Origin: Clostridia bacterium
Lineage (GTDB): Bacteria > Bacillota_A > Clostridia > Lachnospirales > Lachnospiraceae
NCBI GenBank assembly: GCA_012515365.1
Contig: JAAYYM010000770.1
Span: 1-9,434, forward strand
Length of the DNA stretch: 9,434 nucleotides
Reading direction: 5' to 3'
This document shows, piece by piece, positions 2,147 through 9,226 of this stretch (its first letter is position 1; every line of letters starts with the position of its first letter). The translations under genes and the position numbers were made by a program. Below the pieces are notes generated by a model, which was given only the letters and a program-made list of their open reading frames with translations, searched no databases and was not told the origin of the DNA.

Positions 2147-2608
2147 TCAAAGTAAGAAATGTTTCTTATCTTGATGATCCATAAGCAATCTTTCCAGCTG
2201 CCCTCCGGGGCTGGCGTATCCGATAACGATTTTATCGGCTATTTCAATCATCATCTGGTTGCGAATTCGGGCGGTCTCAATGGTTACATATTTTGTATCG
2301 GCATTAAATGGTGTGATGATAAGAAGTCGGCCTTCAGCCAGCGGAGACTTAAGTTCAGGCTCCAAGCGAGATTTCAATCCGCGGGCCAGAGCCAGAATGA
2401 TGGGTTGGGTTCCTTTGAGCAAATAGTGCAGCACATCTTTTTCCATTTGGCTGTGAAAACCACTGATCACGCAGCTGCCCGCATCCCGTTTTTGTACCGC
2501 CCAATCGTAACACTTTAGCACAGCTCTAGCAGGTACCCGGCGGCTGCAGAGGAATGCAGTTTTGGGTAAGGCCAGCAGTTTGTCGTTGCCCAAGGTGGCC
2601 TGTATCAT
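2147..2608 (-). CDS. Short DprA/SMF-like (SLOG superfamily) protein
   Basis: The 153-aa product is a single Rossmann-like domain related to the core of DprA/SMF, the protein that loads RecA on single-stranded DNA. Visible landmarks in order are a CVISGFHSQMEKDVL stretch (residues 46-60, like the DprA SG-x-A-x-G loop), ILALARG (71-77), GRLLIITPFN (93-102), ARIRN (113-117, equivalent to the DprA R-N motif), IADKIVIG (123-130), and a glycine turn with GGQLERLL (135-142). It lacks both the N-terminal SAM-like domain and the C-terminal winged helix of full DprA, which is usually twice this length or more. Related SLOG domains bind nucleotides or DNA, and several serve in conflict systems. Its ATG overlaps the methyltransferase stop (ATGA, 2605-2608), so the two are probably translationally coupled, with GAGG 7 nt ahead as ribosome site. 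I infer a sensor or DNA-binding subunit of the restriction-like core rather than a natural-competence factor. Confidence 0.82.
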   Translation of the reverse strand: MIQATLGNDKLLALPKTAFLCSRRVPARAVLKCYDWAVQKRDAGSCVISGFHSQMEKDVLHYLLKGTQPIILALARGLKSRLEPELKSPLAEGRLLIITPFNADTKYVTIETARIRNQMMIEIADKIVIGYASPGGQLERLLMDHQDKKHFLL

Positions 2609-5600
2609 GATTCTGCCTCATCCCCCTCCAGTTCCTTGCCCATGCGGTATTTAATATCGTAGTTGATTATGAAGTCTAGTTCTTCGGGGGTGAAGCCATA
2701 ATGTTGAGCTAGAATATTATCAACTTTGTCGATAATTGATTTAGATTTCTTTAAATAGTATTCGTCGTATTCTACAGTCCCCGAAGTCGCATATTGATAC
2801 ACTCTCCTTTGAGATTTTGCAATTAAGTCTTCCTCAAGTTCCTTTGAAGTTTTACGGAACTTGGCAATTGAATTTATTTTTACAAAACTAAACGGAAAAT
2901 TAGATATTTCCGGCTTGTTAAGATGATAACAATCAGAAATTGTAATCCACCATACATAAAATAGTGAACTACAAAACAGCCCCGAAGCAACATCAGAATA
3001 TTCTTCAGTTTGGAAGAATATTGCTTTAAGCTGATTTGTGACCTTTTCACCATCTCTCTCACTTTTAAAATATGGAATAAATGAATGCGATCTAATCCAA
3101 AATATTGGAGTATTATGATAATAGATTTGTTTATTACCTTGTTCATATTTAGAAATAACTGATTGGGTATTAATTTTGTTCAGAACCGCCAAATGTCTGG
3201 GATCCGATATTTTTGGAATTACATCATGATACTTAAACCCTTTTACTTCATTAAACTTAACCTGTTGGAATAAGGTGTCGCGTTCTTGGGCATACCATCT
3301 TAGATATTTTGTAGTGAATACACCAACTTTATGATTATCTACCAAAAAGATCGCCAACCTAAATCTGACTCCTGGGAACAAGATACTAGGGTGTGCATCA
3401 GCGCTAATGTTCATAATGAAATTACAGTTAAAACAGTTGTAAAAGTTTTTAACCAAAGGAGCCATTCTTGATGTACTATGACCACTCAAGGGTATTATCA
3501 TTCCGCATCTTGCTTTTTGATGAAGTAAAGTCTTTGTTCTTTCAAGAATGAAAGCATAAAGGTTTCCGCAACTACTCGTTAAATACCCGTAAATCTTGTA
3601 GTTTACAGTTTTAGATTCAACATACGGTGGATTCCCAATTATTACATCAAACCCTCCCCGGCCATGGATAATCTCATAGAATTCGGCAAACCAGTGGAAG
3701 GGCTGATGGGACTGCAGCCAATTTTCAAATTTCATAACAGTGGTTTGTTTGTGCAGGAGCATATTAAGATCATTATTTAGCAATGCCAGTCGTTCTTCCA
3801 ACTCTTCTTTGGCTTGGTGGAATTCCTGGTAGTTTTCCACTCCACCCAGTTGGATTTGCTTATAGCGATTAAACGCCATAGCAACCTGTTCGCAGCGATC
3901 CTTTAACTTTCCTGCATCATCATCAAAATCTAGCTGCCCGGAAAAAGCCTGGTCTATTTCCTTTTCGCTAGCATAGCCTATCAGGGTATTGCCGGTCCGA
4001 ATGTTGTAGTCTATATCCGGCAATGGCTCCAGTCCAAGGTTAGGCTTTTTATAGTTCGGTTCGACGGTGGCCACAAGTTTTAAGAAAAGCCTGAGCTTGG
4101 CTATCTCCACCGCTTCGTGCATTATATCTACGCCATAAAGGTTGTTTAGTATTATGCTCTTGTAAATAAAATACTCGCGATTTGGATGTTCAGGAGCTTT
4201 AACTTTTTCCAGTACCTCGGTAAAGTATTTATGCTTCCGGGGCTGCACTGCTAAGAATTCCTCCATGCGCTGCAGACAAGCTTCATAAAGTGGCTCCAAA
4301 ATGTTCATAGCGGCAAAAAGGAAAGCTCCCGAACCGCAGGTAGGATCTAATATAGAGACGGCTGATCTGGTTTTGCCGTCGCCAGCCAGGGATTTGTAAA
4401 AGTGGAGCAGGAAATCATTATCTTCACAATTTTCAATCACATCGCGTGCAAACTGACGGATATTCAGGTTAAAGGTAATGAAATCATTTATTGAGGTAAT
4501 TTCTCCATTCTCAATTTTGATCCTTACTTCCATATATCGCTTGCGGCGTTCAATCACTTCACGCCATATTTCAGTAGGCAGGGCTACTTCTGATGGCGCA
4601 GACCGGTTCCAGCAGCGCCGCTTCTCGACCAAATCAGACTGGTTCGGCTCCAGACCAGCCCAAATATCATCCGGCAGATCACCCCAGATATCTTCCGGAT
4701 CAACACCGAATTTTACTGCTTCATAAATATACGCGTCCCCGCTGTCTTTGAGCATTGACCAGATCCAGTTTCCAGAGGCAAAAGACGCCGGGCAATGCCG
4801 TTCCGTTTCATCGAATAAATACGGCAGAATGCAATTTTTGCCGATATAGTCCGTAATATCTTCTTTGGTATAATAAGCTCCCATCTGAGCGCGGTCATTG
4901 ATATATTTTTCAAAGATATAACCGATAACATCGGGATTAATATCCTTCCCTGAAGCAGTAACGCGGGTATCCAGATGCCAATTATACTCATCAAAGAAAG
5001 TAAATATGCGGGCAAAGGCCTGGTCGTCGATCTGAATATCAGGATTGGCTTTTTCCAGTTGGTGAACATTAAACAGGCCACCATTTAGATAGGGTATATT
5101 CCCTAATTCAGCTTTTAGTTCAGAACTATGAGCTGGAGCGCCCAATCCGTGATGGAAAAGGGCCAGCAGGAAATCTCGATAGAAAGAATAAAATTTATTC
5201 TTACCCTTCTTTTGCTGACATGCTTGCAGTTTATCGCGTAAATAGTTCTTGTTGTTATCGAGAAATCCTTTCTTTTGAATGAAATAGCAAAACATCAAGC
5301 GATTAAGCATCAGGGAGGCATACCATTCCTGATCGGATTGAGAATCTATACCTTCAATGAATCCCAGGAAGTTTTTATGTTCCTTTTTAAAAACCTCGTA
5401 AAATTTCTTGGTGACCTTTTCCCTGTTCTGCTGGAAGTTCTCCCGTACTTTGCCGGTAACATCAACGATGGTAATGTTCTCTTCTTCATCTAGGGTAAAA
5501 AAGAGGCCGGATGCCTTTTGATACAACAGTTCCGGTTCTTGTCCGTGATACCAGAGGCTTTCACTTATCTGAGGCGGTTTCCCTGATTCACGAAATACCC

Positions 5601-5907
5601 ACTGCCATAGCTGCGCTCTATGATCTTTGTCCAGGAATATGATAAGGTGCTCGCCATATAATCTGGAGATGGCCCGGTCAAGTTTCATGCGGACGCTATA
5701 ACTGGGAATTTTGCCCTTACTGTCCGGCCCGCAAACCAGAATGCGGAAACCACTTTTTTCTGCAACCGTATCCAAGGTGAAAGTAACATCGTCCAACTTG
5801 ACCAAATCCTGATGTTTTTTATAAGACCAGCCAAGGCGATTAAAAAGTCTGGTGAAATCAAATTCTTCAACGTATTGTTTAAATTGCTGTTTACTGATAT
5901 GAGCCAT
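2605..5907 (-). CDS. Eco57I/type IIG-like N6-adenine DNA methyltransferase
   Basis: The 1100-aa protein transfers a methyl group from S-adenosylmethionine to adenine N6 in DNA. The motif order is that of gamma-class enzymes: a YYTKEDI segment (345-351, motif X region), DPTCGSGAF (521-529, SAM-binding motif I), a NNLYGVDI segment followed by IAKLRLFL (motif II/III region, about 588-609), and GNPPYVES with catalytic NPPY at 759-762. About 170 residues separate the motif X region from motif I, more than in many type IIG enzymes. Residues 700-720 look coiled-coil. Residues about 770-1040 should hold the target-recognition region, and the C-terminus ends in a conserved-looking helical unit with YGFTPEELDFI. 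Residues 1-150 form an alpha/beta domain resembling nuclease-like N-termini of this superfamily, but I see no clear PD-(D/E)xK triad. Cleavage therefore probably depends on the PLD partner. It starts 1 nt after the helicase stop with GAGGG 7-8 nt upstream, and overlaps the next gene by 4 nt. The size is like type IIG and BREX PglX enzymes; no BREX partners are present here. Confidence 0.92.
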   Translation of the reverse strand: MAHISKQQFKQYVEEFDFTRLFNRLGWSYKKHQDLVKLDDVTFTLDTVAEKSGFRILVCGPDSKGKIPSYSVRMKLDRAISRLYGEHLIIFLDKDHRAQLWQWVFRESGKPPQISESLWYHGQEPELLYQKASGLFFTLDEEENITIVDVTGKVRENFQQNREKVTKKFYEVFKKEHKNFLGFIEGIDSQSDQEWYASLMLNRLMFCYFIQKKGFLDNNKNYLRDKLQACQQKKGKNKFYSFYRDFLLALFHHGLGAPAHSSELKAELGNIPYLNGGLFNVHQLEKANPDIQIDDQAFARIFTFFDEYNWHLDTRVTASGKDINPDVIGYIFEKYINDRAQMGAYYTKEDITDYIGKNCILPYLFDETERHCPASFASGNWIWSMLKDSGDAYIYEAVKFGVDPEDIWGDLPDDIWAGLEPNQSDLVEKRRCWNRSAPSEVALPTEIWREVIERRKRYMEVRIKIENGEITSINDFITFNLNIRQFARDVIENCEDNDFLLHFYKSLAGDGKTRSAVSILDPTCGSGAFLFAAMNILEPLYEACLQRMEEFLAVQPRKHKYFTEVLEKVKAPEHPNREYFIYKSIILNNLYGVDIMHEAVEIAKLRLFLKLVATVEPNYKKPNLGLEPLPDIDYNIRTGNTLIGYASEKEIDQAFSGQLDFDDDAGKLKDRCEQVAMAFNRYKQIQLGGVENYQEFHQAKEELEERLALLNNDLNMLLHKQTTVMKFENWLQSHQPFHWFAEFYEIIHGRGGFDVIIGNPPYVESKTVNYKIYGYLTSSCGNLYAFILERTKTLLHQKARCGMIIPLSGHSTSRMAPLVKNFYNCFNCNFIMNISADAHPSILFPGVRFRLAIFLVDNHKVGVFTTKYLRWYAQERDTLFQQVKFNEVKGFKYHDVIPKISDPRHLAVLNKINTQSVISKYEQGNKQIYYHNTPIFWIRSHSFIPYFKSERDGEKVTNQLKAIFFQTEEYSDVASGLFCSSLFYVWWITISDCYHLNKPEISNFPFSFVKINSIAKFRKTSKELEEDLIAKSQRRVYQYATSGTVEYDEYYLKKSKSIIDKVDNILAQHYGFTPEELDFIINYDIKYRMGKELEGDEAES
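2790..3630. other. AT-rich block covering the predicted target-recognition region of the methyltransferase
   Basis: Composition drops sharply just downstream of the NPPY codons (3633-3622). Hand counts give 27 G/C in the 120 bases 3061-3180 (about 23%) and 17 of 60 in 2881-2940. By contrast there are 31 of 60 in 3661-3720, on the other side of the boundary, and 24 of 60 in 2641-2700 at the gene's end. The block corresponds to residues about 760-1040, where recognition domains of this family normally sit. The reading frame is intact throughout. Replacement of the recognition domain by recombination is the likely cause; the edges given are approximate. Confidence 0.6.
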
Positions 5908-5908
5908 C

Positions 5909-8900
5909 TTATTCCCTCGCCTTCATCCCTAAAGAACATATGATTTGTGGAATATTAAGTGTATTTGCTTGTTTTTGATCGATTACTGACAAGCGATTCT
6001 CATCGCGCAGTTTGATAAGCATATCCGCCATTTCCTCATCAGATATACCAAAACGGATTCTTCTATTAATCAGTTCCCGGGCACTTTCTTTCAGTGGATA
6101 GCGGTAAATATTATCTATGGTTCTTTTTAGTGCGGCGGTATCAAACAAGGTATCTTTGATGCTCTCATGATAGCGTTCCAATATCTTGTAAGCCCGATAA
6201 CGTGCACCAGCCTGACTCCCCAATTGTCCTCCGGTTTGAGCGGCCTCTTTTTCCGCAACCTCTACTGCACGAGCAACCAGTTCATGATGCAGATCCAAAC
6301 GTTCCAATGCCGGTGTATCAAGCGAACAGGATGCTGTCTTGAGAATGCGTGACTGACTACGCGAAACCACTCTCCCTTTGACATCCAACCAGATCAGGCC
6401 TTCCATGCCATGACTGTTGCGGCTGTATGTAATAACTCCCTCCCCGTCGGATGTCGTGTCTTCAATGGGCTTGGTACTGTAGATCACATCGGGCAGGTTG
6501 GAAATGATTTTTTTTAATTCAGGATTGGCTTTGATTGCCTGGTTCCATATCTCATAAGCCTGGGAAGTGAGATCGATTTCGCCTTCATCTTCGTCAAGAA
6601 TGCCTGCTTTTTCGTTATATAGATCGGCGATATTGACCGGGTCACCATCAAAAAAGGTTTCGTCAGAACCTACTACCTCAGAATTCTCCGATATGCGATG
6701 GGTAAGACGGTTTCTGAGTCTTATGATCTTTTCCAGCCCATCCTGAGGCAAGAAGGAATAACACACTATTTGCGGCGATTGCTGACCAATACGATCAACC
6801 CGGCCGGCGCGTTGGATCAGACGGATTAAGGCCCATGGCAGGTCATAATTTACAATGATATGGGCATCCTGCAGGTTTTGTCCTTCGCTCAGTACATCGG
6901 TGCTGATAAGAATGCGAATTTCATCATACATATCTTTTACTCGATTGCTGATTGGGCTGAAACGATAAGCATATTCGGTAGGGTTTTCAACCGCACCGGT
7001 AACACATCCCAAGTCCTTAATCCCACGGGAACTCAGTTGTTCTTCCAAGTATCGTGCCGTATCGGCAAATTGAGTGAATACCAACACTTTTTCATATTTA
7101 TGTGTTTTGGTCAGCAGTTTTTCCAGGGCGTTCAGCTGGCGATCTTCTTTAGGATTCCAGTACTTGCCGATCTCAATAATCGAGAGTATCGCATCGGCAT
7201 CTTCTTGCAGCCAGCGAGCCAGTTCCGGCATAAACTGACGGCTGCTGATCCAGTCAAATTTATTCTTTTCTATCTGGCAGCGTTCATAATGTTCTTCAGC
7301 CAGTTGGCGATACTTGTCCTTGTCAGTCAACAAGGCCAGCTTGTATTCGCCCCCGCTGTCGTCTTCCTCCAGGAATTCATCCATATCGGCACTTTCCTGT
7401 TGTCCAATCGGAAAGGGCAACCCGTTTTCCATTGCATATAGGAACAAATAATTTCTGGAAACATGGCGAGCCAACGAGACAAGGAAAGAAAAGCCACTGC
7501 TTTCCAAGCGTTTGAAGAGATTGGTTCGGCAAAAACCCATTAATCGTTTCCCTGCCTGAGATAGGTTGGCCATGATCCTTTCTTCTTCCTTCGTAGGTTT
7601 TAGATCAGAATTTGGATCAAGATAATTGCCCAAGCCATAACGAGCCAGATGTAAACTGTTTATCTTGTCAACAACCTCAGTAGAATAGAGCTTGACATAA
7701 ACATCTGAGGGGTCCTTTTCATCAAATCTATATTGCACTTTTTTGGGTACACGTTCTGGAAAATAGTTGATACTGCCATCGTTAAAAGGAATATAGTGTT
7801 GCTTGCGATCTTCGTCCCATATCGCATAATTGCTTTTAATAAAAGTACGGGTACGGCGAACCATATAGGTCTTCAGTAATTCTTGCCAGTCTTCACTAAA
7901 ATCGCTCTTTTCAAAGGCCAATAGCGTGTTTGGCAGATATTGATACTTGGCTACAAATTCGATAGCACCGCCGACACTTTCAACAAAACGCTCCGGACTG
8001 ATTCCAATATCCTTGTCTTCGGGCAGAAACAATCTGAGCTGATTTGAGATATCCAAATAGTTTTTGTTATAAGGTGTTGCGGTTAGCAAGATTACCCGGC
8101 TCTCATTCTTTTCGATATATTCCTTGACCCAGGCATAACGTTTTGCCTGACGATTTCTTAAATTATGACTCTCATCGATGATTACTACCCGGTAACGTCT
8201 GGTCTTTTCAGTAAAACTTGTATTGATCTTAGATATGCTGACCACTCTGGCTCTTAATCCATATTGGTGAACATAATCTTCCCACATATCAGTTAGGTTC
8301 TTCGGACAAATAATCAGGGTTTCGGTAAAAAAGGTTTCCTCAAAAAGCTTGGCAATAGCGGTAGCAGTCAAGGTTTTGCCCAATCCTACTACATCCCCGA
8401 TCAATACCCCTCCCCGTTTGTCGAGATGGCGGGCGGCTATACTAACTGCGCTGGCTTGAAACGGTAAAAGTACATCTTTTAATTCTCGGGGAATGATATA
8501 TTCGCTGATACCGCTGCGGGCCTCCTGTGACAAATGATAAGCCATCTTCAGATAAATATAGTATGGCGGAATCAGCTTTTCCCCTGCCCAGCTTTCTTCC
8601 AGAATATCAATGAGTTCCTGACTGATGTCCAAACACCACATATCGTCCCAGCGTTCTTCAAACCAATCCGATAGTTTCTGAGCCGCGTCCTGTTCCAGGA
8701 CATCCACATTTAGTTCTCCCTGTCCGGACAAACCTGCCATGGTTAGGTTGCTGCTGCCCATATAACCGATCAAGGGAGCCAATTTATCTTTTCTGTGCAT
8801 CAGATAGAGTTTAGCATGCAGCGGATAATCCAGGAAAAGCCTTACCTTGAGTTTTTCTTGCAGTAATTGCAGTTTGAGATTTTGCAGACTTTTTTCATCT

Positions 8901-9226
8901 TTAGCGGTTGGCAGTCCGAAAGTAAGCTGTTGACGAAACGATCGTGCGATTTCCTTCTTCATCGCCAAAGCCTTAGGGTTGTCCATCATACCTTTATCAA
9001 TACGAGCCAGTGCAGCACGTAATAGCTCTTCTTCCGGCCTCTGCATGCCAACCAGCAGACGACAACAGTCCTCTCCGCCACTAAATAAACCAATTTGATC
9101 CTCCACCAATTTCCAACCCCGCAGATTAAAGTAACCAACGCAGAAGTCCGCCCGGTATGAGCTTTCTAAAGTTGTAATCAATCCATCCTTCAGGTGTGTC
9201 TTGATATTGTCATAAATTTTGGGCAT
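5909..9226 (-). CDS. Fused PLD-family nuclease and SNF2-type helicase/translocase
   Basis: The 1105-aa protein joins a nuclease to a DNA motor. Residues 1-210 form a phospholipase D-like domain: LHAKLYLM (H137, K139), GSSNLT (157-162) and GELNVDV (E171). This is the single-HKD pattern of restriction nucleases such as BfiI/NgoFVII relatives, where two chains usually build one active site. Residues 245-840 form an SNF2 superfamily 2 ATPase: an LLPFQ motif (253-257, Q-motif region), Walker A GDVVGLGKT (277-285), DESH (351-354), LTATP (381-385), STDVLSEGQNL (775-785), and QRAGRVDRIGQ with its arginine fingers (805-815). An insertion-rich middle (470-690) and a C-terminal helical region follow. 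The ATG at 9226 is preceded by AGGTGA at good spacing, and a TGA blocks upstream extension. It is the first gene of the operon, 1 nt before the methyltransferase. By analogy with restriction motors it should move along unmodified DNA and cut it; DISARM and related systems use similar parts, but DrmA and DrmB are not seen here. All motor motifs look intact, so it is probably active. Confidence 0.94.
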   Translation of the reverse strand: MPKIYDNIKTHLKDGLITTLESSYRADFCVGYFNLRGWKLVEDQIGLFSGGEDCCRLLVGMQRPEEELLRAALARIDKGMMDNPKALAMKKEIARSFRQQLTFGLPTAKDEKSLQNLKLQLLQEKLKVRLFLDYPLHAKLYLMHRKDKLAPLIGYMGSSNLTMAGLSGQGELNVDVLEQDAAQKLSDWFEERWDDMWCLDISQELIDILEESWAGEKLIPPYYIYLKMAYHLSQEARSGISEYIIPRELKDVLLPFQASAVSIAARHLDKRGGVLIGDVVGLGKTLTATAIAKLFEETFFTETLIICPKNLTDMWEDYVHQYGLRARVVSISKINTSFTEKTRRYRVVIIDESHNLRNRQAKRYAWVKEYIEKNESRVILLTATPYNKNYLDISNQLRLFLPEDKDIGISPERFVESVGGAIEFVAKYQYLPNTLLAFEKSDFSEDWQELLKTYMVRRTRTFIKSNYAIWDEDRKQHYIPFNDGSINYFPERVPKKVQYRFDEKDPSDVYVKLYSTEVVDKINSLHLARYGLGNYLDPNSDLKPTKEEERIMANLSQAGKRLMGFCRTNLFKRLESSGFSFLVSLARHVSRNYLFLYAMENGLPFPIGQQESADMDEFLEEDDSGGEYKLALLTDKDKYRQLAEEHYERCQIEKNKFDWISSRQFMPELARWLQEDADAILSIIEIGKYWNPKEDRQLNALEKLLTKTHKYEKVLVFTQFADTARYLEEQLSSRGIKDLGCVTGAVENPTEYAYRFSPISNRVKDMYDEIRILISTDVLSEGQNLQDAHIIVNYDLPWALIRLIQRAGRVDRIGQQSPQIVCYSFLPQDGLEKIIRLRNRLTHRISENSEVVGSDETFFDGDPVNIADLYNEKAGILDEDEGEIDLTSQAYEIWNQAIKANPELKKIISNLPDVIYSTKPIEDTTSDGEGVITYSRNSHGMEGLIWLDVKGRVVSRSQSRILKTASCSLDTPALERLDLHHELVARAVEVAEKEAAQTGGQLGSQAGARYRAYKILERYHESIKDTLFDTAALKRTIDNIYRYPLKESARELINRRIRFGISDEEMADMLIKLRDENRLSVIDQKQANTLNIPQIICSLGMKARE

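Follow-up and report, generated by a model that had tools for sequence, protein, structure and literature searches.

Several named defence systems combine a nuclease-helicase with a methyltransferase. Type-2 BREX-Related systems encode an HKD-SNF2 helicase and an N6-methyltransferase and are defined by DUF499, almost always together with DUF3780 (PMC12839542, Rakesh & Krishnan 2026), while Hma systems (PMC8565338) share the helicase-methyltransferase architecture. CxC ABC-ATPase-DndE (Pbe) systems possess an HKD and SF2 helicase effector, in some of them with a DNA methylase (PMC10853773). Here, we analysed a stretch of 9,434 nucleotides from a Clostridia bacterium (contig JAAYYM010000770.1 of assembly GCA_012515365.1), referred to at its full length as the window. 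It encodes a three-gene set for which Type-2 BREX-Related is the nearest named architecture that we found: a motor-nuclease, a predicted N6-adenine DNA methyltransferase and a small DprA-like SLOG protein. Motor and methyltransferase very likely form a restriction-like core, and the SLOG protein is a frequent but dispensable partner.

All three genes lie on the minus strand. The motor (9226-5909, 1105 amino acids) is a fusion of a phospholipase D (PLD) nuclease of the HKD type with an SNF2 translocase (Pfam PLDc_2, SNF2 and Helicase_C). It is followed by the methyltransferase (5907-2605, 1100 amino acids; Pfam Eco57I and MmeI_Mtase) and the SLOG protein (2608-2147, 153 amino acids; Pfam DNA_processg_A, sub-threshold at E 0.0054). 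An initial annotation had proposed these genes within 2147-9226, and their coordinates, strand and domains were reproduced with the open reading frame (ORF) list and Pfam. The tight packing it described was read directly: one nucleotide separates motor and methyltransferase (TAA-G-ATG), and the methyltransferase and SLOG genes overlap by ATGA. This packing is not due to chance, since 76 of the 78 assessable relatives have the methyltransferase on the strand of the motor and downstream of it. Promoter and terminator scans of the locus gave signals at chance level.

Comparison with named systems

Like Type-2 BREX-Related and Hma systems, the locus carries an HKD nuclease N-terminal to an SNF2 helicase and an N6-methyltransferase in one operon, but the window is without the DUF499 ATPase and DUF3780 and encodes a DprA-like SLOG protein instead. 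Among the genomes of 44 relatives, 11 carry DUF499 at E≤0.001 (10 over the cut-off), and none of the 25 DUF499 matches falls inside the locus stretches (up to 10 kb on each side, some shorter). PglZ is likewise missing from the window; it was matched in 26 of the 44 genomes (25 over the cut-off), with none of 36 matches inside the same stretches. One of the PglZ matches, in the genome of locus L058 (L and G numbers denote our loci and genomes), would be some 13 kb away from the motor if both share a contig. No other BREX core gene was matched in the window, and the methyltransferase differs from BREX PglX/BrxX by an extra N-terminal stretch of about 160 amino acids. For the six proteins of the window, the full NCBIfam list contains neither DrmA nor DrmB, and Pfam and NCBIfam revealed no HsdS specificity-subunit domain. 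A PADLOC DrmA match on the motor covers the helicase parts only (58 bits, among the best 25 of 47 matches listed), and the DrmD equivalog reaches 145 bits against a cut-off of 610. DISARM, BREX, type I and Hma/BREX-Related were rejected because their defining genes are missing.

The Pbe effector resembles the motor, and its methylase-bearing forms the pair, but no ABC ATPase or DndE partner is encoded in the window. Type ISP enzymes (LlaGI, LlaBIII) consist of one chain with a non-PLD nuclease, whereas two chains with a PLD nuclease are found here. In RqlHI, PsyrTA and ShosTA the partner is RecQ or a phosphoribosyltransferase (PRTase), in contrast to PLD-SNF2 and a methyltransferase in the window, and the SLOG protein, at 153 amino acids, is without the helix-turn-helix domain described for RqlI. 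The restriction-like (RL) system of Gao et al. 2020 reportedly comprises a PLD-helicase with a methylase and resembles our pair in this respect. NCBIfam NF042964 (phospholipase D-like anti-phage protein), reportedly linked to the same work, matches the motor weakly; the motor is not this protein, since it reaches 135 of the 1100 bits required.

With DUF499 and PglZ outside the loci and DrmD and NF042964 far under their cut-offs, we therefore regard the locus as a separate variant of restriction-like systems. We found no name for the three-gene set in the literature searched, the coverage of which was partial, and the set is not described in the available parts of PMC11514479, PMC11090510, PMC12458937 and PMC10952713. 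The initial annotation was right that DISARM, BREX and type I are absent from the window (as borne out by the Pfam, NCBIfam and PADLOC scans), but the motor-methyltransferase pair is already known as sequence: PADLOC contains a full-length model for the methyltransferase, and plasmid pSYSX carries the pair.

Association of the three genes across genomes

A genome scan with the motor alignment yielded 584 relatives, of which the best 80 were analysed; being the most similar ones, they form a biased sample. The record titles of 75 of these 80 name a phylum, 21 named phyla in all. The pairing count of 76 in 78 leaves out two loci with less than 200 bp downstream, and L016, with the order methyltransferase fragment-SLOG-motor, was nonetheless scored as a miss. 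Motor and methyltransferase are at most 30 bp apart or overlap in 55 of the 76 paired loci, are separated by 31-1000 bp in 18, and lie further apart in three. A profile search detected SLOG nearby in 41 of the 80 loci (34 of the 46 that extend 8 kb or more downstream and 24 of the 31 with full flanks). Where its distance was scored (n=40), SLOG was within 30 bp of the methyltransferase in eight loci, 0.25-5.6 kb beyond it in 31 and upstream of the motor in one. No other neighbour cluster occurred in more than seven loci (BLAST clustering, by which divergent families may be split). Homologues of the three genes are thus mostly found together rather than apart. Within the three-gene core first proposed, the pairing of motor and methyltransferase is near-constant, and SLOG is frequent but dispensable.

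Among 296 Bacteroidota genomes, the motor occurs in 10 (at >600 bits, a line set after the scores were known), the methyltransferase in 9 and SLOG in 14. Eight genomes share motor and methyltransferase, seven motor and SLOG, and eight methyltransferase and SLOG (p=3e-13, 1e-8 and 2e-11, respectively, kinship ignored). Weaker motors were present in seven more genomes, one of which, G273, has a SLOG match. Within 36 three-gene loci, the protein distances were correlated (Spearman 0.61 for motor-SLOG, 0.52 for motor-methyltransferase and 0.61 for methyltransferase-SLOG); for each correlation, 0 of 1000 permutations was as high, though part of the signal may reflect common ancestry of the hosts. 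The three-gene association is real, with co-occurrence beyond chance and co-divergence.

The PLD-SNF2 motor

Residues H137, K139, N160, E171 and K284 of the motor are conserved in 79 of 81 aligned proteins, the other two being gapped there, and R806 and R809 in all 81. H137, K139, N160 and E171 belong to the HKD-type nuclease and K284 to Walker A; a DESH box lies at 351-354. The motor shares 83% identity with a partial protein assigned by name to Syntrophomonas wolfei. The loci nearest to the window are L005 and L006, and of the loci compared L005 has the motor most similar to that of the window. Judged by these relatives, the host is probably a Syntrophomonas-like Bacillota. The best PADLOC match of the motor was to C3a139 (172 bits, among the best 25 of 47 listed). 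A scan of viral contigs with the motor found no relative. Around the system there is a wider superfamily, as seen from divergent PLD-SNF2 and methyltransferase pairs in L124 and L127, which score about 345 bits with the motor profile.

A methyltransferase with a predicted inactive nuclease position

Gamma-class N6-adenine methyltransferases carry, in this order, an S-adenosylmethionine-binding motif, NPPY and a recognition region. The methyltransferase of the window follows this order: an N-terminal extension (about 1-160) and a spacer precede the catalytic domain with DPTCGSG (521-527) and NPPY (759-762), followed by a variable recognition region (about 780-1050) and a conserved tail. Compared with its L005 counterpart, the core is 80% and the tail 76% identical, but the recognition region only 20%, which points to cassette-like exchange, a signature of restriction-modification. 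A sequence search of the PDB with this protein alone found no relative. Structure comparison matched it to BrxX, MmeI and type ISP enzymes (structure alignment A4 omits two plasmid rows present in A3), and judging from the predicted model it is BrxX/MmeI-like.

The structural alignments start at residue 165 of the model and 161 of MmeI, and at 155 of the model and 143 of DrdV; in MmeI and DrdV, the nuclease sits in the N-terminal stretch preceding these starts. Like type IIG/IIL enzymes, the protein is thus a methyltransferase of one chain, extended at the nuclease position and equipped with a swappable recognition region, and the fusion of methyltransferase and target-recognition region, a type IIG feature, is present. 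One might therefore propose a type IIG enzyme with an accessory helicase, in which the methyltransferase chain cuts via its N-terminal domain and PLD-SNF2 assists or degrades the products. The full-length PADLOC family REase_MTase_IIG (2e-293) favours this proposal, as do the first 160 or so residues, which occupy the place of the MmeI/DrdV nuclease, and their predicted secondary structure (H-H-E-E-E-H-E, H helix and E strand), compatible with a REase-like fold. However, in the aligned stretch 28-66 (49 rows) no acid is conserved besides D/N at position 28 and E50. Position 28, after GW, is D in 35 of the 49 rows and S in the window, and E50 is present in 27. A [DE]xK at a fixed place is absent from the aligned residues 25-66, with scattered occurrences in 10 of the 49 rows. 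In addition, the PLD active site is kept in the motor. Unlike in type IIG/IIL enzymes, nuclease and ATP motor here reside in a second protein. From these alignments, the N-terminal domain is probably dead; the PADLOC type IIG label is doubtful since conserved catalytic acids are lacking, a type IIG enzyme with an active nuclease is disfavoured for the same reason, and we regard the proposal as distinctly unlikely.

In 7 of 60 methyltransferases, NPPW replaces NPPY/NPPF (L003, L020, L023, L048, L050, L058 and L075), and six of these seven also carry DPACGSG. The motor can thus be paired with another methyltransferase subclass.

A Synechocystis relative with a mark assigned by elimination

Plasmid pSYSX of Synechocystis PCC 6803 carries a motor and methyltransferase pair, 50.6% and 46% identical, respectively, to the proteins of the window. 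The two pSYSX genes are separated by a small gene and by one for a VapC toxin (L002:12487-13120). The gene table of the whole plasmid, by its own description incomplete, contains two DNA methyltransferases, namely the partner of the motor and a type I subunit. We assume that the former is slr6050, a gene name that was not found in the literature searched. M.Ssp6803IV and M.Ssp6803V are located on pSYSX (PMC6604393), and M.Ssp6803V is the type I enzyme Slr6095 (PMC6560206). By elimination, the motor-paired relative, SGL_RS01600, is therefore M.Ssp6803IV, the mark of which is GAm6AGGC (PMC7296061).

Other Synechocystis enzymes influence gene expression through methylation (PMC6560206, PMC7296061), which would be in line with a non-defensive epigenetic regulator accompanied by a DNA-repair motor. 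But exchange of the recognition region between close relatives fits restriction specificity rather than a fixed regulon, and the distribution is scattered over 21 named phyla and plasmids. We consider such a regulator highly improbable.

The DprA-like SLOG protein

Among the three proteins, the small DprA-like one is the new, unexplained part of the set. It has a DprA-type Rossmann fold, as expected for the DprA-fold SLOG superfamily, and scores 16.4 bits against Pfam DNA_processg_A (gathering cut-off 29.6), a cut-off that the longer relatives in G010 and G335 pass. A separate, strong DprA (at least 225 bits) was present in 20 of 20 genomes searched; given this and the sub-cut-off match, we rejected the possibility that the SLOG protein is the housekeeping DprA. 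A PDB search with its sequence alone found no relative, and a profile search gave only weak DprA/ShosA matches (E 0.046-0.093), ranked behind a designed protein. In the structure comparison, the nearest solved fold was the ShosA antitoxin, which suggests that the SLOG protein may act as a brake or licence on the nuclease.

Further members of the SLOG family were found in Bacteroidota without this methyltransferase (L118:9068-9829 and L119:9717-10385). One of the two adjoins a ClpC-like gene, itself also matched by PADLOC candidate models, and these proteins possibly reflect a second role of the family.

Proposed mechanism

We consider a restriction-modification-like system the best explanation of the locus as a whole, and a reasonably probable one. 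As a reading it goes back to the initial annotation, and it gained support from the near-constant motor-methyltransferase pairing, the exchange of recognition regions and the structural match to BrxX, MmeI and type ISP enzymes. Of its elements, the set of genes, the conservation of active sites, the pairing, the exchange of cassettes and the folds were observed directly or are confident predictions. As suggested by sequence, structure prediction and the relative in Synechocystis, the methyltransferase would use its exchangeable recognition region to mark the adenine of a short, locus-specific site on host DNA. Unmarked foreign DNA would be engaged, the SNF2 motor translocating with ATP and the fused PLD domain cutting, as their conserved active sites imply; site recognition is probably supplied to the motor by the methyltransferase chain. 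The DprA-like protein would most likely be a control subunit that binds the motor or exposed DNA and checks the nuclease on self DNA until foreign DNA is encountered. Analogous cases are RqlI, whose DprA-like region binds and restrains the helicase RqlH (PMC4670107), and the DprA-PRTase pair, ShosTA and SyrTA antitoxins (PMC9122126). By this analogy, a brake or licensing factor is plausible, but we hold this assignment tentatively, as somewhat short of probable.

Several points weigh against this explanation. The recognition region is kept in L011/L001 (core 86%, region 84% identical) and in L042/L072 (core 72%, region 67%), and the mapping of M.Ssp6803IV to its gene rests on elimination. The literature searched holds no phage, methylation or nuclease assay of the operon. 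SLOG is missing in 12 of the 46 loci reaching 8 kb or more downstream, L005 included; 11 of these 12 genomes carry none elsewhere, and its presence changed 11 times on the motor tree. Such free loss counts against an antitoxin for a lethal nuclease; its frequency fits a modulator rather than a strict antitoxin. Moreover, 6 of the 14 SLOG-bearing Bacteroidota genomes are without this methyltransferase; three of the six matches (G178, G273 and G277) are pieces close to the end of a contig, and a divergent motor and methyltransferase occur at another place in G273. Finally, to judge from the alignment, the DprA motifs 1 and 2 for binding single-stranded DNA (as in PMC9769556) are only partly kept: of the C-S-R motif, C is present in 44, S in 46 and R in 27 of 46 proteins, and the A-x-x-R-N motif (A 41, R 45 and N 46 of 46) takes the place of F/L/Y-x-x-R-N in DprA.

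The missing SLOG genes, their frequent position 0.25-5.6 kb past the methyltransferase and the Bacteroidota genomes without the methyltransferase would also fit mobile cargo, with SLOG as an independent DprA-like toxin-antitoxin or nucleotide-signalling module outside the restriction mechanism. Forms fused to an N-terminal GIY-YIG nuclease domain (P0216 and P0227) exist as well. Yet no other neighbour cluster approaches the 41 of 80 loci with SLOG, the protein co-diverges with motor and methyltransferase, its gene overlaps that of the methyltransferase in the window, and no recurrent toxin partner stood out among the neighbour clusters; cargo is a rather doubtful explanation. Alternatively, SLOG could be an activator or sensor: on binding single-stranded DNA or a nucleotide made upon infection, it would turn on the nuclease, perhaps triggering abortive infection. 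But the aromatic residue of the DprA motif is lost, and of the 12 SLOG-less loci 11 retain both motor and methyltransferase (L051 is without the methyltransferase); we think an activator fairly unlikely.

Returning to the restriction-modification-like explanation, it is possible, though speculative, that these loci constitute a separate ATP-dependent restriction class of many phyla. A dead type IIG-like scaffold would serve methylation and site recognition, PLD-SNF2 would cut in trans, and a DprA-family protein would license or restrain cutting, linking DprA-like antitoxins to restriction-modification. If so, a restriction-like system spanning at least 21 named phyla is now catalogued under 'type IIG' with an unnamed helicase beside it. 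The methyltransferase would then clearly exemplify an enzyme that keeps the body of a self-contained restriction enzyme while cutting is handed to a motor protein, and the SLOG protein would be, to our knowledge, the first control subunit of DprA-like type in a restriction system. Swappable recognition regions on a common scaffold would, in addition, make it easier to infer DNA specificity from sequence.

Neighbouring genes

With 110 of 261 flanking proteins from 34 loci, 179 PADLOC families were matched at 1e-20, versus 46 for 96 control proteins, which include defence genes of their own (DUF499, CRISPR and GajB-like); these counts are of families and not of proteins matched, and we do not take them as evidence of defence-island enrichment. 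The controls were drawn as 98 of 209, with the two longest dropped before alignment. Pfam assigned the flanking proteins mostly to housekeeping families.

Downstream of the three genes, all on the minus strand, the window encodes an Mrr_N winged-helix protein (1988-1395, 197 amino acids; Pfam, with no Mrr nuclease domain found), an ORF of 162 amino acids (1311-823) and a DUF3800 protein truncated at the window edge (594-1; Pfam, PADLOC candidate PDC-M04A). At E 0.01 the 162-residue protein matches nothing in Pfam, NCBIfam or PADLOC, and the loci searched contain no relative. Relatives of the Mrr_N protein adjoin SLOG in L041 and L047, which belong to other phyla, and a motor fragment in L108, three places among the loci compared. 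It is possibly an occasional fourth partner, and plausibly a reader of modified DNA. The DUF3800 protein may be an accessory with a weak link to the system; its counterpart at L124:6634-7350, a strong member of the family, is located between a divergent PLD-SNF2 gene and its methyltransferase.

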